Source: Planctomycetota bacterium (lineage in GTDB: Bacteria; Planctomycetota; PUPC01; JACPCR01). From it: 64,000 nt of DNA. The stretch lies in NCBI GenBank assembly GCA_027625095.1, contig JAQBXN010000035.1, positions 1 through 64,000 of the forward strand. The letters are read 5' to 3'. The translations under genes were made by a program, and so were the position numbers. Positions 16,166 through 32,405 of the stretch are shown in pieces; position 1 is the first letter of the stretch; every line of letters begins with the position of its first letter. The notes under the pieces were generated by a model. The model was not told where the DNA came from and ran no database searches. It saw nothing but the letters and a program-made list of their open reading frames with translations.

Positions 16166-19100
16166 ATGACCTTCCGAATCGTCCCCATTTTAGTTCTGTT
16201 TTTCGGTTTCTTTGTGGACTCGTCAGCGGAATACACCCGCCTCTCACGTTCGCTCTGGTGGGAGCCTTACCATTACGACGCCGGGACAAGCGCCCTGTTT
16301 CATCTGGATGCGAAAGGCAAGAAGGAGGAAGCCGTGGATTTCGATGCCCTGGACGACGAACCTGACTTGAACGCAATCGACAGTGATGTCTCGCTGTCAC
16401 CGAACAAGGCAGGCAATCTCAACAGTGCAGCGAATGCCGTCCCCAGCGGGCAGGGGGCGAATCTGGTGGGCAAGGCCGCGTATGTGGTCCAGGGCCGATT
16501 CGGCGGGGGCCTGAAACTCGACGGCGGGTTACTCTTCTGTAAGTCGCAAGAGAAGAGCGGCTGGCGCGGCACTGAATTCTGGATTCGGCTGGCAGCCTAT
16601 CCCGAAAAAAAGGCAGTCCTTCTGGAGCATGCAGCAGCTCCCCGTCGCGCTGCCGGGGCCTACGATTCACAGGAATGGAATGCGAGCCTGGCGCCCCTTT
16701 CAATCCTGGTTTTGAAAGATGGCACTCTGGCCTGCGAATCGCCGAAAGCCGGTAAGCGAGCAGGCGTGTTCGAGTCCTTTGATGCGCAGCTCCCGCTGGA
16801 TAAATGGGCACACGTTTCCGTCACAGTGACACACATCTGGCCGCATGGCAGCGCTGTTTACCTGTATGTAAACGGTGAATCGAAGGGCAAGCTCGCACTG
16901 GAAGGGGAGCTGACAGGACACATAACGCTTCACTCGGAGGCATGCACGATTGGGAACGCTCCCTCGGGGGTTGAGGGACTCCGCGCTACCATTGATGAGG
17001 TGCGCCTCTCAACCGTATTTCGCAGCTATTACAAATTCGATCTCAATTGGCCACAGCCTGATCGCAAAGTTGAAGTCACCAACCGGCAGCCATGGTTTCG
17101 AGATGAAAACGACCTGCTGTTTCACCTGGATTTCAACGGAACGTGTAAGCCGGTGAAGTGCGCGCCTGATACGAACTACCCGGACATGGCGATTACGAAC
17201 AACGATATCGAATTCAATCCATCCAAGGTGGCAGCAACCTATCCGACAGGTATCGAAGGCCGCGGGCTCATGCTGGGGGACGGGAGTCTTCGCCCGGCCT
17301 TCAGCGCGAAGGGGAACATCCTGCCAGCACGGGGAACTATCGCCTTCTGGATGCAGCCCATTGATTGGGACAACTTCACCCGTGACTATCGTCTGGACTC
17401 GATTCATCCGACAGCCTTTGGCCTCCTTCAGTTGGACAGTCGCACGGTGGAGGGATCCAACGAAGCGGTCTATCGCCAGATCGGCCCTCTGCTGCAATAC
17501 AGCGCAAACATGCACTTGCCTGAAGATGTAACGAACCCGCCCGTCTTCCAACCTGGTAACTGGGCTCACGTAACGGCCACGTGGGAAGGCACTGATGTCA
17601 GCTACTACATAAACGGCCTGCGCCGAAATCCGGAGGGCGCCGTTGTTGCGGCCATGGAGATCCGGTCTGCCGGCGACCCCTACCCCTACAAAAAAGCCAA
17701 CCCCAGATGGTGGATCGAGTCCGAACCGGTGATCCTGCGCTTTCGAGAAAATCTTTACTGGGAGCAACGCGGCACACCCATGCCGAAAACGATCATCGAT
17801 GACTTCCGGATTTATCGTCGGCCACTCGCACCTTCAGAAATCGCCAATCTCGTCAGGCTCTTCGACCCGCGAGAAAAAGTCGAACCACTTCCGCAGGCCG
17901 ATATGCACCTCTATACGAATGGTGTCAGCGGGACAGCGAATGCTGACCTGATTCCCCTGATCGATTCATACAAGGAAGTCACCGCCGGCCGACTGACGGT
18001 AAAAAAGTCCGGTGATCCAACGAACGTGGGCCAGGCGGAAGCCAGCTTTGGCGAACAGCGGCAGGGCAAGGTCGAGGTCAAGACGCCGCCGCTCGATTTC
18101 GGTAACTACGACATTCTGGCCGAACTCCTCAACGCCGACGGCAAGATACTCGCGACCGTCAAGGACTCCTTCACGCGAAAGCCGCCTCCGTGGTGGCAGA
18201 ACAAAGCGGGGGTTTCAGACAAACCGCTTCCAGAGTGGGATTCGGTGACCATTGAAGGCAACATCGCCAAGGTATCTCTCAGGCAGATTTATCTCAGCGG
18301 CTCCGGACTTCCGGACAAAGTGGTCTCCGTTGGTGAAGATATTCTGGCAGCACCGGTGGCCCTGAACATTCGGAGCGCAGGCAAGACTCTCTCCCTGAAA
18401 CCTGAAAAAGAATCCATTGATATCGTCCGGCACATACCGGCCCGGTGCGATTGGCAAGGCTCTCTCTCCTCCGATCTACTCACCGTCAAGACCAATGCCT
18501 ATATCGAGTTCGACGGCATGATGTGGTTTGACGTGACTCTGAAACCAAAGGGACAAAAGGCCAGGATCGACATGGTTGAACTGCGAATCCCCTATCGGAA
18601 GGAGGCAGCGAATCTAACCCACTGGTGGAGCGGTCACAGAAACTTCCGCGATCCCCAAGCCGTGCACATCGGCGCCCTTCCGGAAAGCGAAGGCGTCATC
18701 TTTCGCAGCAACGACAGCAACAGAATCAAACTTCTTGATGAAATGCGGGGCAGCTTCATCCCGTATGTCATGGTAACCGGCGACCACCGTGGCATGGCCT
18801 GGTTCGCCGAAAATGATCAGGGCTGGACTCAGAGTCGGGAGAAGCCGGCCTTATTCATCGAACATAACGGCGACACAGTGACACTTGTTCTGAATATCGT
18901 TTCGGAGAGTATTGAGATCCCTGAGGAACGGACATTTTCCTTTGGTCTCCATCCCACACCGGTTCGCAAACTAGATCCCTTGTGGCGGGAGTCCCCCGTC
19001 TATTCCAATGTCTTTCCCGATACTTTCTGCGGGAATAACCTGAAGGGCCGCAAGGGCCCGACCTCGTTCTACCTTTACCCGGAAGACGACTGGGATGCGG

Positions 19101-20359
19101 TCAATCAGCGCATCAATGGCGAGGGCCTTACCAAAGGGGCAGCCGGTCTTCGTGGCCTTTACAAGGGGCAGATGGATGGGCTGAAATCCAGAGGCATTAC
19201 CAACCCGCCACCGCAGTCGCTCACAGTGCCTGGTCTTTATTGGGACATGCAATGGAACGCCATTCCCGCACTCGAGCACACTCGCGAATGGTCAGAGACC
19301 TGGGCGCCTGACTACCAGTACTACACGCCGGAGTTCATAAATTTCGCCTCCTGGGCATGGAACGAATGGATCGGGAAGACGGACAAATTTGTGCAAGGCG
19401 CCTATATCGACAACTGCTGGGGCGCTCCACTGACCAAAGCCGGCGGGCCGGTGACTTACACGCTACCCGACGGCCACACCCAGCCGGGCTTTCAGTTTCG
19501 GGGCTACCGGGAACGCTTCAAACGTATGCGACAGATTTCGCACGACAATGGCGTCTTTCCGCACCTGACCAGCCACACCACCCACACTCTCCTGATTCCA
19601 TACCATTCTTTCTTCGACCTGATTCTGGATGGTGAAGATTTTTATTCATCGCCGCCGGCCCAACACGACTTCATCGATCACTGGCCCCTCGACCGTATGC
19701 GCTTCATGCACAACGCCAAGTGGGGCCTGGTCACCACCTGGCTCGGCTGGCACGGCAACTCGCTCAAGAAAGATAAATGGCCGGCCTGGACGTTTCGCCA
19801 GTCCCGCGCTTACGACGGGCACATGGCCCAGCACGATATCATGTGGGGTTTCGATCCAGAGCTCATAAATGAATTCGGATTGAAGCAGCCGGATACGGAA
19901 TTCATTCCGTACTGGGAACCAGAATCTCCGGTCCAGAGCAGCAGTAAGAACGTGAAGGTAACCATCTGGAAACGGCCGAAGAAGTGCCTGATCCTGTTAG
20001 TCAACGTCGGCCCCGGACGCGAGGAGGCAACAGCTACTTTAAGCCTTTCGCGACTCGGTTTTGATCCCGAGAAGACCGCTATTCGGGATGTCGATCCAAC
20101 TTTGCTGACCTACTTCAAAGAAGACATCACTTCCGATGCGACACCAGACGCCCCCAAGATCTCCGCCAAGCTGGACGCGGCCGCCGACCTGGGATTTGAG
20201 GACACCCCGGAAAAAGAACTCGAAGAGACTCCCGACAAACTCCCCCTCGAAGAGCGCCGCCTCAAAGATCCTGACGGCAAATGGGAATGGAAGGACAGCA
20301 AACTCAGATGCCCCGTTCGCCGACACGACTACCGCCTGTTTGAGATGTTGGTCAAATGA
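16166..20359 (+). CDS. Large secreted two-lectin-domain protein with glycoside-hydrolase-like core (DUF6067-like)
   Basis: 1,397 residues with a signal peptide (FRIVPILVLFFGFFVDSSA). Two concanavalin/LamG-type lectin modules follow, roughly 45-290 (KWAHVSVTVTHIWPHGSAVY, YVNGESKGKLALEG) and 320-560 (GNWAHVTATWEGTDVSYYIN). A beta-rich linker leads to a large catalytic-looking part (about 690-1300) with GLHPTPVRKLDPLWR, GLYWDMQWN, GAYIDNCWG and LILDGEDF, arranged like a TIM-barrel glycosidase. This resembles the DUF6067 proteins of Planctomycetes and Verrucomicrobia, but that is from memory. It probably binds and cleaves polysaccharide outside the cytoplasm. The acidic tail (TPEKELEETPDKLPLEE) is unusual. 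A HEAT-repeat gene follows 154 bases later. Confidence 0.7.
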   Translation: MTFRIVPILVLFFGFFVDSSAEYTRLSRSLWWEPYHYDAGTSALFHLDAKGKKEEAVDFDALDDEPDLNAIDSDVSLSPNKAGNLNSAANAVPSGQGANLVGKAAYVVQGRFGGGLKLDGGLLFCKSQEKSGWRGTEFWIRLAAYPEKKAVLLEHAAAPRRAAGAYDSQEWNASLAPLSILVLKDGTLACESPKAGKRAGVFESFDAQLPLDKWAHVSVTVTHIWPHGSAVYLYVNGESKGKLALEGELTGHITLHSEACTIGNAPSGVEGLRATIDEVRLSTVFRSYYKFDLNWPQPDRKVEVTNRQPWFRDENDLLFHLDFNGTCKPVKCAPDTNYPDMAITNNDIEFNPSKVAATYPTGIEGRGLMLGDGSLRPAFSAKGNILPARGTIAFWMQPIDWDNFTRDYRLDSIHPTAFGLLQLDSRTVEGSNEAVYRQIGPLLQYSANMHLPEDVTNPPVFQPGNWAHVTATWEGTDVSYYINGLRRNPEGAVVAAMEIRSAGDPYPYKKANPRWWIESEPVILRFRENLYWEQRGTPMPKTIIDDFRIYRRPLAPSEIANLVRLFDPREKVEPLPQADMHLYTNGVSGTANADLIPLIDSYKEVTAGRLTVKKSGDPTNVGQAEASFGEQRQGKVEVKTPPLDFGNYDILAELLNADGKILATVKDSFTRKPPPWWQNKAGVSDKPLPEWDSVTIEGNIAKVSLRQIYLSGSGLPDKVVSVGEDILAAPVALNIRSAGKTLSLKPEKESIDIVRHIPARCDWQGSLSSDLLTVKTNAYIEFDGMMWFDVTLKPKGQKARIDMVELRIPYRKEAANLTHWWSGHRNFRDPQAVHIGALPESEGVIFRSNDSNRIKLLDEMRGSFIPYVMVTGDHRGMAWFAENDQGWTQSREKPALFIEHNGDTVTLVLNIVSESIEIPEERTFSFGLHPTPVRKLDPLWRESPVYSNVFPDTFCGNNLKGRKGPTSFYLYPEDDWDAVNQRINGEGLTKGAAGLRGLYKGQMDGLKSRGITNPPPQSLTVPGLYWDMQWNAIPALEHTREWSETWAPDYQYYTPEFINFASWAWNEWIGKTDKFVQGAYIDNCWGAPLTKAGGPVTYTLPDGHTQPGFQFRGYRERFKRMRQISHDNGVFPHLTSHTTHTLLIPYHSFFDLILDGEDFYSSPPAQHDFIDHWPLDRMRFMHNAKWGLVTTWLGWHGNSLKKDKWPAWTFRQSRAYDGHMAQHDIMWGFDPELINEFGLKQPDTEFIPYWEPESPVQSSSKNVKVTIWKRPKKCLILLVNVGPGREEATATLSLSRLGFDPEKTAIRDVDPTLLTYFKEDITSDATPDAPKISAKLDAAADLGFEDTPEKELEETPDKLPLEERRLKDPDGKWEWKDSKLRCPVRRHDYRLFEMLVK

Positions 20360-23422: not shown

Positions 23423-25426
23423 TTGCAGGGGAATACATGCTCGACATATCCACTGTTTCGATCAGAGAAATTCTCTATGCACTCGCCGCGGGCAGCCCAA
23501 AAATCGAATATTCGAAGGAGGCTAATGCAAGGCATCCCCGCCAGCCTGGGTATCTTCTGCCTGTTGCTTACGGCCTCGAGGAGTGAAGAGGCGGGCCGAA
23601 CATTTTCGCCATTCAAGGTAAAGGCAGCGGCCGAACAAGAGCAGGCTGAGAACCAGGCCCCGGTACCCGGTTTTACGACGAGAGCGACTTCAAATGATGG
23701 GGAGCGGGGGGCTGAATCAGACGCAGGCAACAGGTCACCCATCCCGGCATTTTCAACGACAAGAGCTACTTCCCCGAACGCCGATAACGAATCAACCCTC
23801 GAGCAGGAAGCCCTGGAAGAGCAAAAGCCACCCCAACAGCTTGCATTGCAGAACGGGCTGGCTTCGGCCGGCTTTACTCGTGCCAACGGCAGTAACTCAT
23901 CGCCGCAGATTACTATCAGTTCATTCAACATCCCCGAAAGCAGTATTCCGCAAGAGGAACTCGACCTGATCCTTCAGCCGATGAAGGATGCGCCAATGGG
24001 TTTGGCGGAACTGAAGGCCAAAATACGTGAGGCCCTTCTGGAGGCATACGAACAGCGCGGCATCAAAGGCGTCCAGGTCTTCATCCCCCCTCAGACCATC
24101 AAAAATCGTGAGCTGCTGGTTAACCTGATTGAGCCAAAGCTCGGCAAGATCACCATCGAAGGCAACCACTATTTTAAAGAGGCCAACCTTCTCCGTTACC
24201 TCAAAGGCATCTCAACTACCAGTGGCACGATTGTCATCGAACAACTGGAACAACGACTACGCCGGGTCAACAGACACCCGGACAGGAAAGTCGCGGTGGT
24301 CCTTAAAAAGGGCGAGCAGGAGGGCGAGACCGACATCGTCATGAATGTGAAAGAACGAGAGGCCATCCATGGGATCTCCCCTCTGCATGTCAGCACCGGC
24401 ATTGCCAATACCGGATCGGCCAGCACAGGCCGAATCCGGGTGAATCACGCCGTCCAATACACCAACGCCTTTGGAAAAGAACACGTCGCCGGCGTCACCT
24501 GGCAGTACAACCCGGAGGACTTAAACCAGGTGCGAGCCATCTCGGGCTCCTACCAGATTCCGCTGGGTATTACAGGGCACAGCATCTCTTTCTTCGGTGG
24601 GCATTCTGATGTTGAGTCCCCCACATCACTGGATGGTATTGAGCTATTCGGCAACAGCATCACTGCGGGCGTTCAGGCGAATTTTGAATTACCTGAGTTC
24701 TGGAATCTTGAATCCAATCTCACCGTTGGAATTGAATGGACAGAGCTCAAGAACAGCATCGACTTCGCCGGCCAGGAGGTGCTGAATTCGAACCTCGGAA
24801 TGCTGCCGATGACCGCCCGTTACTCGTTCGTAAAGCGCGGCACTTCGGGAGTAACTACCGGAAGGATTGGTTTCAAATATCACGCAGGTGGGCTCGCTTC
24901 GAAAAGCGACCAGGCAGACTTCAATATTTTCCGTGACGGGGCCCCTTCCGATTTTCTCGTGGTGGAGATGGGGCTTCAACGATACCAGCGCCTTGGCAAA
25001 TACCTCATGTTGAATGTTGATCTCAAGGGGCAATGGACACCGGATGACCTGCTGCCCGCGGAGCAGATGCACATCGGAGGAGCAAGCACTGTCCGAGGTA
25101 TCGAGCGCTCAGAAGTTTCGGGCGACCAAGGCTTTATCGCCCGCACGGAGATCGAAGGCCCTCCCATGCGCGGCCCTCTCAATCGTATCTCATCAGCAGA
25201 AGACACCTTCAGCGTCAAGGCCTTTCTTGACTACGGCATGGCCTTTCTGGAAGACTTCACGGGCAATTCCCGTTCGAGTGATATCGCCGGGGCTGGCGTA
25301 GGGTTGAACTACAGAATCAGCAACTACATCGAGGCGAATGTCGAGGCCGGTGCCGCACTGATGGACGCCCAGCAGACCGAGAGCGGCGATGTGTTTGTGC
25401 ATTTCAACATTTCCATAAAATTCTGA
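23423..25426 (+). CDS. TpsB/FhaC-type outer-membrane transporter (two-partner secretion, ShlB family)
   Basis: 667 residues. The first ATG lies 55 residues before a likely signal region (IPASLGIFCLLLTASRSEE), so the true start may be at 23477 or 23525. A disordered stretch with TTRATS repeats (about 70-160) precedes a POTRA_2-type domain (QITISSFNIPESSIPQEELD, GKITIEGNHYF). The C-terminal half is a 16-strand-like barrel, with the family signature HIGGASTVRGIERSEVSGDQ and a terminal phenylalanine (FNISIKF) for BAM recognition. TpsB proteins export large TpsA exoproteins by recognising their N-terminal domain. No TpsA gene is in view, which leaves the cargo unknown. The HEAT and EF-hand genes upstream may be linked. 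Confidence 0.85.
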   Translation: MQGNTCSTYPLFRSEKFSMHSPRAAQKSNIRRRLMQGIPASLGIFCLLLTASRSEEAGRTFSPFKVKAAAEQEQAENQAPVPGFTTRATSNDGERGAESDAGNRSPIPAFSTTRATSPNADNESTLEQEALEEQKPPQQLALQNGLASAGFTRANGSNSSPQITISSFNIPESSIPQEELDLILQPMKDAPMGLAELKAKIREALLEAYEQRGIKGVQVFIPPQTIKNRELLVNLIEPKLGKITIEGNHYFKEANLLRYLKGISTTSGTIVIEQLEQRLRRVNRHPDRKVAVVLKKGEQEGETDIVMNVKEREAIHGISPLHVSTGIANTGSASTGRIRVNHAVQYTNAFGKEHVAGVTWQYNPEDLNQVRAISGSYQIPLGITGHSISFFGGHSDVESPTSLDGIELFGNSITAGVQANFELPEFWNLESNLTVGIEWTELKNSIDFAGQEVLNSNLGMLPMTARYSFVKRGTSGVTTGRIGFKYHAGGLASKSDQADFNIFRDGAPSDFLVVEMGLQRYQRLGKYLMLNVDLKGQWTPDDLLPAEQMHIGGASTVRGIERSEVSGDQGFIARTEIEGPPMRGPLNRISSAEDTFSVKAFLDYGMAFLEDFTGNSRSSDIAGAGVGLNYRISNYIEANVEAGAALMDAQQTESGDVFVHFNISIKF

Positions 25427-27510: not shown

Positions 27511-29352
27511 CTACATAGAGGCCAGCCCCAACTCTGACAGCTTCGTTCCTGTCGGTACGCCTTCCAAGTCCCAACCACGCTCAGCGTAGTACTCGGGCAG
27601 CATTTTATCGAGATTGACGGTCACGCCTTTTGATGGGCCAGCTTTGTGTGCGTCCTTGAGCAGACGCTGTGGGAGGTTGTCGTCCGCTTTTGAAAGGCCG
27701 GCACGGAGATTCCATAAACGCTCGATGTTCCAGATCCGTTCACCGATTTTGGTGACGCGTTCGAGAGTAAAATCCTCGCCGGTTGCTGCGGCCAGCAGTG
27801 GGGTAAGGAAATTGATCCCAGCGCCTCCGGCCCCAGTGAAGAGGCAGATACCGGTGGCATCATGGGCGGTGGTACGGTTCTGTTCTTCGGCGACCCACTT
27901 GGCTTTGCCATCCGTTGTGTGCGGGTCGTAAGCCCCTGAGGTTTCGATGGCGGGCGTCCAGGCGCGCAGGTGGCACGCGCCCCGGTTGCTGGTGGCATAG
28001 GCCACGCCCATGCCCTGGAAGCCGCGAGGATCGTAGGCTGGAAACTCCTGGCCTTTGACGCCCATGAAGACGTCGGGCCGCTTGAATTTATCGCCGAGAA
28101 TTTTGCTACCCTCGGCCAGAACATCGCCGAAGCCCTCGCGATAGGCGGTCGCTTCTATCATACGGATGAGCGCTTCCGCGCTGCCGAAATTAAGTGGCAT
28201 TTCGACCATGGAATCATCAATAACCCCATCTTCATAAAGCTCCATGGCAGCGGCGAGAGTGGCGCCCATGGAAATCGGATCCATTCCAAGATCGTTGCAG
28301 AGCCAGTTGGCTTTGATAACGGCATCGATATCACCGACACCAGTATCCGCACCGAGAGCCCAGCCGGCTTCGTATTCGAAACCTTCACCCGCTTCCTTCC
28401 AGTTCCTTGGATGCATGTTCACCATGAATTTGTCATGGCCTTCGTCTGCAAGCTGGGTCACCCGGCCACAGGCGATCGTACAGCCAAAGCAGGCCTTGTT
28501 GGCCACAAGGCGCTGATCCTTGAGGCTGTTCCCGTTCAGGTTTTCGGCGTGTTCAAACTGCCCTTCCTTGAAATTACGGGTGGGCAGCCCGCCGAATTCG
28601 TTCACCAGATCCATGGTCGGTGCGGTACCCAGCTCGGTCAATCCCTGCCTGCCAGGGCTGTTCTTCAAAACGCCGTGCATTTCACCCAGGGCCTTCATGA
28701 ATTTACCCGGATTTGCAATCGTGACCCCTTTCGTCCCGCGAACGGCAATTGCCTTCAAATTCTTTGAGCCCATGACCGCGCCTACGCCCGAACGCCCGGC
28801 TGCGCGATGCTTGTCATTCATGATACAAGCGTACCGAACCAGGTTTTCGCCGGCCGGCCCAATGCAGGAGACGCGAGTGCCGGGCACACCGAGTTCGTCA
28901 CGGATCTTGTCTTCCGTGTAAGGAACGGTCTTTCCCCATACGTTTTTCGCGTCACGGATTTCTACGCGGTCGTTATGAATGGATATGTAAGAAGGCTTGG
29001 GCGCCTTTCCTTCAATGATCAGCAGGTCATAGCCGGCAAATCGGAGTTCCGGCCCCCAGAACCCACCGGAATTGGAGGTCGTAATCGCATTGGTGAGCGG
29101 CCCCTTGGTGACGACCATGTAGCGGGCGCCGCTGGAGACTGGCGTACCGGTCAGTGGGCCGGGCGCAAGGATTAACTTGTTCTCGGGGCTGAGAGGGTCT
29201 GCCTTGGGATCCATCTCTTCGTAAAGATATTTGGCAGCGAGACCGCGACCGCCGATAAAGCTATGAAGCCATTCGGACGGGATATCCTCCACCGTGCAGC
29301 GGCTTTCGGTGAGATTGATTCGTAGCAGCTTACCTGTCCAGCAATGAAGCAT
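27511..29352 (-). CDS. Aldehyde ferredoxin oxidoreductase family protein (tungsten/molybdopterin)
   Basis: 613 residues. The N-terminus (GKLLRINL, FIGGRGLAAKYLY, GPLTGTPVSSGARYMVVTKG) is typical of the AOR N-terminal domain. SGVGAVMGSKNLKAIAVRG is the pterin-binding segment. CFGCTIACGR (CxxCxxxC) and the later cysteine in HDATGICLF supply the [4Fe-4S] ligands. The enzyme oxidises aldehydes to carboxylates with ferredoxin, or acts in reverse. The length matches the family. No ferredoxin, MoaD or tungstate transporter gene is adjacent. Presence of this gene suggests anaerobic or microaerobic capability. A good ribosome site (AGGAAA) precedes the ATG. Confidence 0.93.
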   Translation of the reverse strand: MLHCWTGKLLRINLTESRCTVEDIPSEWLHSFIGGRGLAAKYLYEEMDPKADPLSPENKLILAPGPLTGTPVSSGARYMVVTKGPLTNAITTSNSGGFWGPELRFAGYDLLIIEGKAPKPSYISIHNDRVEIRDAKNVWGKTVPYTEDKIRDELGVPGTRVSCIGPAGENLVRYACIMNDKHRAAGRSGVGAVMGSKNLKAIAVRGTKGVTIANPGKFMKALGEMHGVLKNSPGRQGLTELGTAPTMDLVNEFGGLPTRNFKEGQFEHAENLNGNSLKDQRLVANKACFGCTIACGRVTQLADEGHDKFMVNMHPRNWKEAGEGFEYEAGWALGADTGVGDIDAVIKANWLCNDLGMDPISMGATLAAAMELYEDGVIDDSMVEMPLNFGSAEALIRMIEATAYREGFGDVLAEGSKILGDKFKRPDVFMGVKGQEFPAYDPRGFQGMGVAYATSNRGACHLRAWTPAIETSGAYDPHTTDGKAKWVAEEQNRTTAHDATGICLFTGAGGAGINFLTPLLAAATGEDFTLERVTKIGERIWNIERLWNLRAGLSKADDNLPQRLLKDAHKAGPSKGVTVNLDKMLPEYYAERGWDLEGVPTGTKLSELGLASM

Positions 29353-29534
29353 AGGAATTTCCTCTGTTTAGTCGTCAAGAGCAGCCTGCACTTTGTAGCC
29401 TTTCCTGGCCGCGGATCAAGTTGAAGAGGAAAGTGGCACTTTTTAGGTCTTTATTGACTAAGCAGATAGCGGAAATCATAATGCCCGATCCTTGGTGGCC
29501 AGCCGTGCAGCCCGTTTAAGACCGGAGATCTCCC

Positions 29535-30821
29535 GTGCCAGAATTGAAGCTCCAGACAGGAATTGAAACCATCGGAGGCGTTAAGTTCACGCGCCTTTCG
29601 CTCGCAGGCTTCATCAACTCGTCGACATTTCAGAATTTTCAGAAAACGCTGGATGTATTGCTCCAGGCACCACCCAAGGAGCTTGTGCTTGATTTTGCCG
29701 AGGTGCAATACATTAACTCGACCGGCATGAGCACTCTGGCCAATTATCGCAACGCTTTTCTGAAGGCCGGCACGGAAATGGTTGTTCTCAACCCCTCCGA
29801 TCCTGTCTATGGCATCATGTCCCTCATTGGCCTTCCGGAGATTCTCCCCATCTTCGGCAATGAAGATCTGCTCTTCAGCTATTTCCGCAGCGGCAAGGTG
29901 GGTGACCGCCGGACCGATATCGCCCAGGAAGAGACCCCGGAAGCCTGGAAACCCAAAGGTAAAGACGGCCCTGCGAACGCAAAGGAATTTGAGATGCTCA
30001 AGCCTGAGGACTCGACAGTCCTCATGGTCGTGCGGCAGCGGGATCGTTTTACCGAAATTACCCGCCGCCGGCTGATGGCCCCCAAGGGCCGCTTTGAGTT
30101 TGCCTTTAATTGCGATGAAGCACTCAATATGTTCGACCGGCTGAATCCGGACCTGGTGATTCTCGAGGATCAGCTCGAAGGGGCGGAGGATTTTCTCGCG
30201 ACCATAAAGGTGCAGAAGGGCAAGAGCATCACTCCGATCATCAAGGTCTATGACCCTGGCACGGATCTGGCCAAGCGCAAACAGTTTAAGATTTGGGAGG
30301 ATGCCTACCTGGTCGAGCCGTTCGAGATGGTCGAGCTCTTCACCTTATCTGAAGCCGAGCTCCGGCAGATACCGAAGAACCGGCAGATTTTACTGCATCT
30401 GACCCATTTTGAATTTCGCAGTTCGGCACTCGATGTTGAAAAATCCAAAGAACTGTCCAAGCAGTTGCTATCCGTTTCCGGCCTGAGCAAAACGGCTGCA
30501 ACAGAGACGCAGGCTGCCTTCACCGAGGCTGTGGACAACGGTGTTCTGCACGGGCACAAGGGTGATACCTCCAAGCAGATCGATGTCGTGGTGCTGATCG
30601 ATAATGACAAGATCCAGATAACGGTCGAAGATCAGGGCGCTGGTTTTGATTATCAGAAACACCTGAAGGCGGTGCGTGAATCTCCGAACCCCCTCGAAAA
30701 GCGCGTCTCCGGCCGAACTGGTGGGCTCGGCATTCACCTGATGACCCGCTGTACGGATCAATTGGAATACCTGGGTGCGGGCAATTGCGTGCGACTGACA
30801 AAATACCTTACAGCGGGGTAA
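29535..30821 (+). CDS. STAS / pseudo-receiver / RsbW-type ATPase fusion (anti-sigma antagonist and kinase in one chain)
   Basis: 428 residues, cytoplasmic. Residues 1-118 are a STAS domain of the RsbV type, with the phosphorylatable serine at 62 in YINSTGMSTL. Residues 160-275 look like a receiver, but the phospho-site aspartate is glutamate (E211 in PDLVILED), the lysine is E261 (LVEPFEM) and the threonine is lost. Residues 290-428 are a GHKL/RsbW ATPase, with N-box E331 and N335 (TEAVDNGVLHG), VEDQGAGFD and GGLGIHLM. In Bacillus RsbV and RsbW are separate partners that set sigma-B activity. Here antagonist and kinase are joined through a glutamate-bearing receiver. The partner sigma factor or target is not in view. 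Confidence 0.85.
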   Translation: MPELKLQTGIETIGGVKFTRLSLAGFINSSTFQNFQKTLDVLLQAPPKELVLDFAEVQYINSTGMSTLANYRNAFLKAGTEMVVLNPSDPVYGIMSLIGLPEILPIFGNEDLLFSYFRSGKVGDRRTDIAQEETPEAWKPKGKDGPANAKEFEMLKPEDSTVLMVVRQRDRFTEITRRRLMAPKGRFEFAFNCDEALNMFDRLNPDLVILEDQLEGAEDFLATIKVQKGKSITPIIKVYDPGTDLAKRKQFKIWEDAYLVEPFEMVELFTLSEAELRQIPKNRQILLHLTHFEFRSSALDVEKSKELSKQLLSVSGLSKTAATETQAAFTEAVDNGVLHGHKGDTSKQIDVVVLIDNDKIQITVEDQGAGFDYQKHLKAVRESPNPLEKRVSGRTGGLGIHLMTRCTDQLEYLGAGNCVRLTKYLTAG

Positions 30822-31091: not shown

Positions 31092-32405
31092 ATGTCCGCA
31101 CTAGAAACACTCGAACAACGCATCAAGGATAAATCCGCCCACCTCGGCGTCGTCGGTATGGGCTACGTTGGCCTGCCACTCGGTGTAGCTATGGCCAGTG
31201 CTGGTTTCCGAACCACTTGCATAGATGTCGATCCTCGCAGGGTGGAGCGCGTAAATCGGGGAGAATCTCACATTCAAGATATAACAAATGAAGTCCTCGC
31301 ACCGTTGGTGAAGAGCGGTCTTCTGGATGCGTCGACCGATCCGGCGATCATCGCCGAACTCGACGCGGTCAGCATCTGTGTGCCCACGCCGCTGCGGAAG
31401 ACAAAAGAGCCGGATATGACATTCATCGATAAAGCGGTGGACATGATCGCCAGGAATATGAAATCCGGCAGCCTGATCGTATTGGAGAGCACCACCTATC
31501 CCGGCACGACAGAGGAGGTGGCTTTGCATCGTCTGGAACAGGGCGGCTGGAAAGTGGGCAAAGATTTTTACCTGGCCTTCTCCCCCGAACGCATCGATCC
31601 GGGCAATAAGACCTACACCGTCGTAAACACGCCCAAAATCGTCGGAGGCATCACCGACCGCTGTACTGAAGTGGCCACGATTTACTATGAACAGTTCATT
31701 GATAGGGTTGTCCGGGTCTCCAGTGCCCGCACGGCCGAGATGGTGAAGCTGCTGGAGAACACCTTTCGCGCGGTCAACATCGGTTTGGTGAACGAGCTCG
31801 CCCTTATGTGTGATCGCATGGATATCGACGTCTGGGAAATCGTCGATGCCGCGGCCACCAAGCCCTTCGGATTCATGCCGTTCTATCCCGGCCCCGGTCT
31901 GGGCGGACACTGTCTGCCCGTGGATCCGCACTACCTTTCATGGAAAGCCAAGACCTACGAGTTTTATGCACGCTTCATCGAGCTTGCGAGCGAAATCAAC
32001 AGTTCGATGCCGGAGTATGTCTTCCAGAAAATCTCGAAGGGGCTCAACCAGCAGAAAAAGTGCATCAATGGCTCGAAGATTCTCGTGCTCGGAGTTTCCT
32101 ACAAACGTGACGTCGGTGACATTCGCGAGTCGCCCGCACTCGACGTGATGGAACTCCTGCGCCGGGCGGGGGCCGACCTCTCCTATCATGATCCTTATGT
32201 AGATCAATTGGCCATTGGGTCGCTGCAATTGAGTTCTTGTTCCCTGGACAGTCGCGCAGTAAGCAGCGCTGACTGCGTGGCAATCATGACCGATCACACC
32301 TCTTTCGATATGTCCTCAATCGCGGCCGGGGCGACTCTGATTATTGATACCAGAAACGCAACCAAGAATGTTGGAGGGGACCGGGGTCATATCGTCAAGC
32401 TCTAG
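31092..32405 (+). CDS. Nucleotide-sugar 6-dehydrogenase (UDP-N-acetylglucosamine dehydrogenase type, WbpA/WecC-like)
   Basis: 437 residues. GVVGMGYVGLPLG (19-31) is the NAD-binding motif, and ESTTYPGTTEEV and FSPERIDPGNK are the standard family segments. KLLENTFRAVNIGLVNEL gives the catalytic lysine and asparagine. GPGLGGHCLPVDPHYLSWKA contains catalytic cysteine 274. SYKRDVGDIRESPALDVM starts the C-terminal UDP-binding domain. The enzyme oxidises C6 of a UDP-N-acetylhexosamine to the uronic acid with two NAD, for surface polysaccharides. The WbpA class is favoured over UDP-glucose dehydrogenase because of the FSPERIDPGN segment. No polysaccharide cluster surrounds it. Confidence 0.93.
   Translation: MSALETLEQRIKDKSAHLGVVGMGYVGLPLGVAMASAGFRTTCIDVDPRRVERVNRGESHIQDITNEVLAPLVKSGLLDASTDPAIIAELDAVSICVPTPLRKTKEPDMTFIDKAVDMIARNMKSGSLIVLESTTYPGTTEEVALHRLEQGGWKVGKDFYLAFSPERIDPGNKTYTVVNTPKIVGGITDRCTEVATIYYEQFIDRVVRVSSARTAEMVKLLENTFRAVNIGLVNELALMCDRMDIDVWEIVDAAATKPFGFMPFYPGPGLGGHCLPVDPHYLSWKAKTYEFYARFIELASEINSSMPEYVFQKISKGLNQQKKCINGSKILVLGVSYKRDVGDIRESPALDVMELLRRAGADLSYHDPYVDQLAIGSLQLSSCSLDSRAVSSADCVAIMTDHTSFDMSSIAAGATLIIDTRNATKNVGGDRGHIVKL

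Follow-up and report, generated by a model that had tools for sequence, protein, structure and literature searches.

What does a protein do that carries, on one chain, both halves of a bacterial partner switch and, between them, a receiver domain that has lost its phosphorylation chemistry? In the Bacillus systems RsbW/RsbV and SpoIIAB/SpoIIAA, kinase and antagonist are separate proteins, no receiver is involved, and a sigma factor is encoded in the same operon. A gene within the 64,000-nucleotide stretch of Planctomycetota DNA analysed here (contig JAQBXN010000035.1, positions 1 to 64,000; ‘the window’) encodes domain-level homologues of both partners as a single polypeptide. A sequence-only reading of this locus had proposed a constitutively ‘on’, self-regulating switch, locked in that state by a glutamate at the position of the receiver’s phospho-accepting aspartate.

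Domain architecture and genomic setting

The open reading frame, Pfam matches, profile comparisons and an AlphaFold2 model together place a STAS domain, a receiver-like domain and an RsbW-like kinase on the polypeptide encoded at 29535-30821, as that reading had claimed; its residue numbering is also borne out by alignments, in which S62 corresponds to the SpoIIAA phosphoserine, E211 to the phospho-aspartate site and E261 to the receiver lysine. The features of the gene, all on the forward strand, are as follows.

29454..29482 (+): candidate sigma70-type promoter, TTGACT-17-CATAAT (pattern scan, 10/12 matches; weak)
29524..29527 (+): GGAG, likely ribosome-binding site, 11-8 bases before the GTG (sequence reading)
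29535..30821 (+): STAS-pseudoreceiver-HATPase gene, 428 aa, GTG start (ORF call, orthologues)
29571..29864 (+): STAS domain of anti-sigma-antagonist type, aa 13-110 (Pfam PF01740, 4.5e-13; SpoIIAA/RsbV structures by profile)
29718..29720 (+): codon of Ser62, the predicted phospho-acceptor, in an N-S-T-G motif (conservation in homologues; alignment with the SpoIIAA phosphoserine)
29889..30008 (+): linker, aa 119-158, with a disordered core at 129-154 (pLDDT < 50 at 129-154; least conserved segment)
30012..30389 (+): pseudo-receiver, aa 160-285 (VicR/YycF profile match ~2e-15, AlphaFold2, Foldseek)
30033..30038 (+): R167-Q168 at the receiver acidic-pair position (alignments)
30165..30167 (+): Glu211 at the phospho-Asp position (alignments)
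30249..30251 (+): Tyr239 at the receiver Thr/Ser position (alignments)
30315..30317 (+): Glu261 at the receiver Lys position, within a family E/D-P-F motif (alignments)
30390..30818 (+): RsbW/SpoIIAB-like HATPase (Bergerat) kinase domain, aa 286-428 (Pfam PF13581, 1.6e-18; RsbW/SpoIIAB structures)

The two ends of the protein are readily assigned. The STAS loop fits the pattern (D/N)-S-(S/T)-G, its first residue being Asn and not Asp, and the single-sequence HATPase_c_2 match (aa 309-423, 1.6e-18) covers a domain that carries the N-box Glu/Asn, the D-x-G-x-G and the G-G-x-G motifs of such kinases (E331, N335, D366, G368, G370, G397 and G399). Scores against the RsbW equivalog models fall so far under their cut-offs (53.6 versus 145 bits for NF003144 and 45.6 versus 155 bits for TIGR01924) that the domain is best described as RsbW-like, rather than as RsbW. 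The middle third gave no match in a single-sequence Pfam search, where the receiver lies below threshold; the same single sequence matched NCBIfam receiver models at ~6e-6 and VicR/YycF entries of the PDB at ~2e-5, and a profile built from 44 homologues matched receivers over the whole domain (VicR 2.4e-15, YycF 2.7e-15). The AlphaFold2 model, computed from 44 sequences (mean pLDDT 84.5, pTM 0.64), shows folds of STAS and kinase type at the two ends and, after the disordered linker, a receiver-like alternation of beta strands and alpha helices in which helix 4 is indistinct; at this pTM, the STAS domain is not shown docked onto the kinase. A Foldseek search with the model ranked LvrC of Leptospira first, followed by SpoIIAB, RsbW, SpoIIAA/RsbV and receivers. 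On the combined strength of profile matches, model and Foldseek ranking, the identification of the middle region as a receiver was upheld, and the possibility that it is something else was rejected.

The source genome (Planctomycetota, 8.95 Mb, 95% complete) offers little context for the gene at the locus itself. It is flanked by a divergent aldehyde ferredoxin oxidoreductase (AOR) gene (27511-29352, minus strand) and a UDP-sugar dehydrogenase gene (31092-32405, plus strand), neither of which explains it; genes for a phosphatase, a sigma factor or another client are absent next to it. The AOR gene is also divergent in the closest relative (L072/L040), a single close relative and thus too few genomes for the adjacency to be called functional. 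The candidate promoter lies within the 182-bp gap between the two divergent genes, in a scan that found two promoter-like sites where 1.2 are expected by chance. A search for plasmid copies of the gene found none. Elsewhere in the window are a ShlB/POTRA-type two-partner secretion transporter-like protein (23423-25426, plus strand), here in a planctomycete host, and a protein of 1397 aa that combines a laminin-G-like domain with a glycoside hydrolase region of GH123 type (16166-20359, plus strand).

Distribution and evolution of the family

The search of related genomes for the same domain order, which the earlier reading had put forward as a check, was carried out with a profile on 392 Planctomycetota genomes (E <= 1e-40) and returned matches in 118 of them. 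Full-length STAS-Rec-HATPase proteins account for 45 matches, in 44 of the 392 genomes and at least 21 family-level lineages, and an additional copy is interrupted, through either a frameshift or a sequencing error. Such retention of the domain order across dozens of related bacteria indicates that the arrangement is real; an assembly artefact was rejected, the order being identical in 44 genomes. A separate scan of the genome collection, using narrow peptide patterns taken from one protein, recovered one full-length relative and says little about other phyla. One genome (G098; L113, L114) contains two diverged full-length copies. A paralogue of 732 aa in the window protein’s own genome (L128:5585-7780) has a long N-terminus of unknown type, a diverged pseudo-receiver and HATPase, and a C-terminal extension.

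Most of the other profile matches cover receiver and kinase only, and 12 of the 13 such proteins that were aligned carry an HU/IHF-type N-terminus (PF00216) in place of the STAS domain. These HU/IHF-pseudo-receiver-kinase fusions (L118:6450-7553, L117:1215-2324 and 11 others) are widespread in Planctomycetota, some with two HU-like repeats. On a tree calculated from the shared part of 57 proteins (44 STAS-type and 13 HU-type, with column 211 omitted), the STAS/HU label requires two changes, and the HU-type proteins of L118-L120 branch inside the STAS side, next to the STAS-fused clade; the N-terminal domain has thus been swapped in the course of evolution.

The comparison includes two members of the window protein’s own family-level lineage. 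The nearest orthologue, in a Planctomycetota MAG of that lineage and the basis on which the source genome is assigned to this phylum, is 75-76% identical, with a dN of 0.18 against a dS of ~2.4 (near saturation). Divided by domain, identity is highest in the receiver (83%, pN 0.11), followed by the STAS domain (79%), the kinase (73%) and the linker (55%); as the best conserved part, the catalytically dead receiver is under selection rather than decaying.

A kinase and its candidate substrate on one chain

The profiles of the STAS and kinase domains match SpoIIAA/RsbV and RsbW/SpoIIAB, respectively, which are proteins that bind each other. Position 62 is serine in all 44 STAS-type homologues (at ~24-76% identity), E331, N335, D366, G368, G370 and G399 do not vary among the 57 members of the family, and Ser62 and these kinase residues belong to only 18 invariant columns of the 44-sequence alignment. 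Their invariance makes a self-acting partner switch plausible, so that this part of the earlier proposal stands. The loci of the HU-type relatives point the same way: in L118, L119, L120 and L127 the HU-Rec-HATPase gene is followed immediately, and in the same orientation, by a separate STAS gene, and in L122 such a gene follows on the opposite strand, which, next to the fused arrangement, suggests that STAS domain and kinase act together.

The reading favoured here, on balance, is that of a self-contained serine kinase/STAS switch. The C-terminal RsbW-like domain would bind ATP, dimerise and phosphorylate Ser62 of the STAS domain tethered to it through some 35 residues of flexible linker, either within one chain or across the dimer, and a separate PP2C phosphatase would remove the phosphate. 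Unphosphorylated STAS may cover the client-binding face of the kinase, which phospho-STAS would then free; alternatively, the two STAS states may bind different clients. The pseudo-receiver, rigidly fixed to the first (dimerisation) strand of the kinase, would provide a surface for dimerisation or for the docking of an input protein, and would not be set ‘on’ by Glu211. Domain order, conservation, the intact Ser62 and kinase residues, the lost receiver chemistry, the flexible tether and the rigid receiver-kinase joint are computational results; we infer Ser62 autophosphorylation, its reversal by a PP2C enzyme, the gating of a client by the STAS state, and the docking role. Favouring the proposed rigidity, the last receiver helix of the AlphaFold2 model (265-285) leads without interruption into kinase strand 286-295; residues 129-154 are disordered. 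Candidate phosphatases are available, since the genome contains 14 SpoIIE/PP2C (PF07228) matches, none of them beside the gene.

Weighing against a self-contained switch are the absence of a phosphatase or client gene next to it and the presence, in the genome, of free STAS proteins as alternative candidates for the kinase’s real substrates. The main rival explanation is built on the latter point: the kinase would mainly phosphorylate free STAS proteins in trans, with its own STAS domain serving as a decoy or as a docking domain for other kinases. Besides 15 matches to HATPase_c_2, the genome has a number of free STAS genes, one of which (L162:5848-6246) has the same N-S-T-G motif as the fused domain; in the cassette C126 a free N-S-T-G STAS gene lies beside one for a STAS-zinc ribbon-HATPase protein; and the HU-type sisters, which lack a fused STAS domain, must act in trans. 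Invariance of Ser62 in 44 of 44 fused domains is nevertheless what would be expected if the tethered STAS itself were modified, and the tether would hold it at high local concentration, so that a hub acting in trans is possible and yet rather unlikely.

The zinc-ribbon proteins form a group of their own, in which a STAS domain, a zinc-ribbon-like segment (CxxC...CPRC) and a degenerate HATPase follow one another, and they adjoin HU-type kinases at several loci (L118:7634-8689, L119:7135-8169, L120:6306-7349, L127:7310-8371 and L162:4607-5788). In the protein of this kind in the window genome, the STAS serine has been lost (NRAG).

A second rival is a classical sigma partner switch condensed onto one chain, with the HATPase domain holding a sigma factor that the tethered STAS domain would free. 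The ends of the protein do resemble SpoIIAB/RsbW and SpoIIAA/RsbV, and the similar Rec-RsbW protein LvrC has been interpreted as an anti-sigma factor (PMC13269768). In a search confined to sigma factors of the SigB/F/G class, however, the window genome yielded none above the TIGR02980 cut-off (best score 130 versus 234 bits), no sigma gene adjoins the locus, and in the SypE/SypA system an RsbW-like domain acts on a STAS protein with an output that is not known as a sigma factor (PMC10120452). A sigma switch is accordingly considered quite improbable.

A receiver without its chemistry

A receiver from which even one of the five catalytic residues is missing counts as a pseudo-receiver (PMC12632262). 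The window protein has the receiver fold, by profile and by model, and retains none of the five: R167 and Q168 replace the acidic pair, E211 the phospho-aspartate, Y239 the Thr/Ser and E261 the lysine, so that it is a pseudo-receiver and not a catalytic one. Much of this loss extends throughout the family. The receiver lysine is retained in none of the 57 members, being replaced by Glu (24) or Asp (20) in the 44 STAS-type proteins and by Glu (10) or Gln (3) in the 13 of HU type; the first acidic position is Pro in 47 of 57 (Arg in the window protein), the second is variable, and the Thr position is Tyr in 39 of 57.

Position 211 is not invariant in the family. Among the 44 aligned STAS-type proteins it is Asp in 33, Glu in nine, Arg in one and His in one, and in the HU-type sisters it is Asp in 13 of 13; homologues with Asp at 211, which the sequence-only reading had itself named as evidence that would overturn it, are therefore the majority. 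On the tree, Asp is ancestral, with no fewer than three losses, and the clade closest to the window protein is uniformly Glu. Judged from the alignment, Glu211 is a mark of that clade and not a trait of the family.

Glutamate at the phospho-aspartate site can partly activate true receivers, and is the commonest residue in receivers that lack the aspartate (PMC12632262), which, with its uniformity in the closest clade, is what could be said for a mechanism in which Glu211, standing in for a phosphorylated aspartate, would hold the receiver, and hence the kinase, permanently on. A phosphomimetic Glu is thought, however, to interact with the receiver’s T and K residues (PMC12632262); these positions are Tyr and Glu in the window protein, so that Glu211 lacks the pocket that phosphomimicry requires. 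Because acidic pair and lysine have been lost family-wide, E211 probably represents drift in a receiver that was already non-phosphorylatable, rather than a phosphomimic. Phosphomimicry was rejected as the main mechanism on the residue counts and the tree, and is very improbable; the claim that the switch is constitutively on because Asp became Glu is unsupported. Least credible of all is a structural scaffold whose domains serve binding only, for which the dead receiver and the related C126 protein (degenerate HATPase, serine changed in NRAG) might be cited, as kinase and Ser62 motifs invariant over at least 21 family-level lineages are unexpected without catalysis.

Gene neighbourhoods and a possible input

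Among relatives, the gene immediately before the kinase gene, and in the same orientation, encodes a free-standing MshEN domain (PF05157) at 6 of 43 STAS-type loci and, where the type is HU or unclassified, at 13 of 15. These genes (~19 loci, for example L079:4928-5581, L105:5403-6086 and L126:4854-5663) are spaced from the kinase by anything between a 14-base overlap and a 110-base gap, or, in L131, overlap it by ~120 bases according to the ORF calls. In other proteins MshEN binds c-di-GMP (PMC5013675); not all of the linked genes preserve the motif for doing so well, and a c-di-GMP input to the kinases is possible. A broader and doubtful extension would describe a Planctomycetota-wide module, consisting of an RsbW-like kinase, a non-phosphorylatable receiver and an exchangeable N-terminus (STAS as its own substrate, or HU as a DNA binder), which would receive its input from an MshEN protein (c-di-GMP-type) docking on the pseudo-receiver instead of from a histidine kinase; in this scheme, the window protein would represent the STAS-bearing single-chain form, its linked MshEN gene having been lost.

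In two family-level lineages (f19 and f67) the STAS-type gene lies ~1-2 kb from dnaA, in divergent orientation, with dnaN and gyrB beyond (L086, L087, L089, L090, L092, L093, L100, L102, L103 and L104). Downstream at these loci are tig-clpP-clpX-like genes in f19 and a phosphoribosyltransferase gene (pyrE-like) in f67.

Relation to described systems

Parts of this arrangement have been described before, although each known system departs from it. In LvrC (PDB 9qih; PMC13269768), the best structural match over both domains (Foldseek, E 1.2e-11), an RsbW-like Bergerat domain likewise comes immediately after a receiver; unlike that of the window protein, this receiver is canonical and phosphorylated (D53, Y-T switch), a STAS domain is missing, and the two domains are oriented differently from those of the model (rmsd ~14-15 A). 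TciR of Vogesella indigofera likewise joins a REC to an RsbW-like domain, but is paired, in a proposed model, with the sensor kinase TciK, and lacks a STAS domain in a host without RsbV; the architecture search in the same study already counted 13 REC-RsbW proteins in Planctomycetes (PMC12826045). In Vibrio fischeri, SypE is a receiver-attached RsbW-like serine kinase that acts on a STAS serine, differing in its N-terminal kinase, functional receiver, C-terminal PP2C domain and separate STAS partner, SypA (PMC10120452).

The earlier reading knew of no described example, but a single-chain one exists in Rv1364c of Mycobacterium tuberculosis, which carries phosphatase, RsbW-like kinase and STAS antagonist on one polypeptide, and in which Ser600 of the STAS domain is phosphorylated by the protein’s own kinase domain (PMC9138534, PMC10950880). 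It differs from the window protein in domain order (PAS-PP2C-kinase-STAS), in having its own phosphatase, and in having no receiver. With single-chain kinase and antagonist known from Rv1364c, and Rec-RsbW proteins from LvrC, TciR and SypE, the window protein is a variation on known switches.

Reviewed bacterial pseudo-receivers share with the window domain a receiver fold minus catalytic residues. The window protein departs from them in the replacement of all five, and the present family in its acidic or Gln replacement of the lysine, for which Arg is the common substitute in the review, where fusions to STAS, anti-sigma or HATPase domains go unmentioned (PMC12632262). The literature searched, whose coverage of subscription journals is thin, contained no protein with the order STAS-pseudoreceiver-kinase, an absence that is weak evidence; the architecture appears to be undescribed.

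Significance

The regulation of bacterial pseudo-receivers has been described as a mystery (PMC12632262). The present family offers a deep, phylum-wide set of kinases in which the central receiver has lost its chemistry and is yet the best conserved domain relative to the nearest orthologue. With kinase and candidate substrate on one chain, autophosphorylation of Ser62 would give a direct readout of the role of the pseudo-receiver, and the natural exchange of STAS and HU domains, together with the linked MshEN genes, provides specific and testable candidates for its output and its input.
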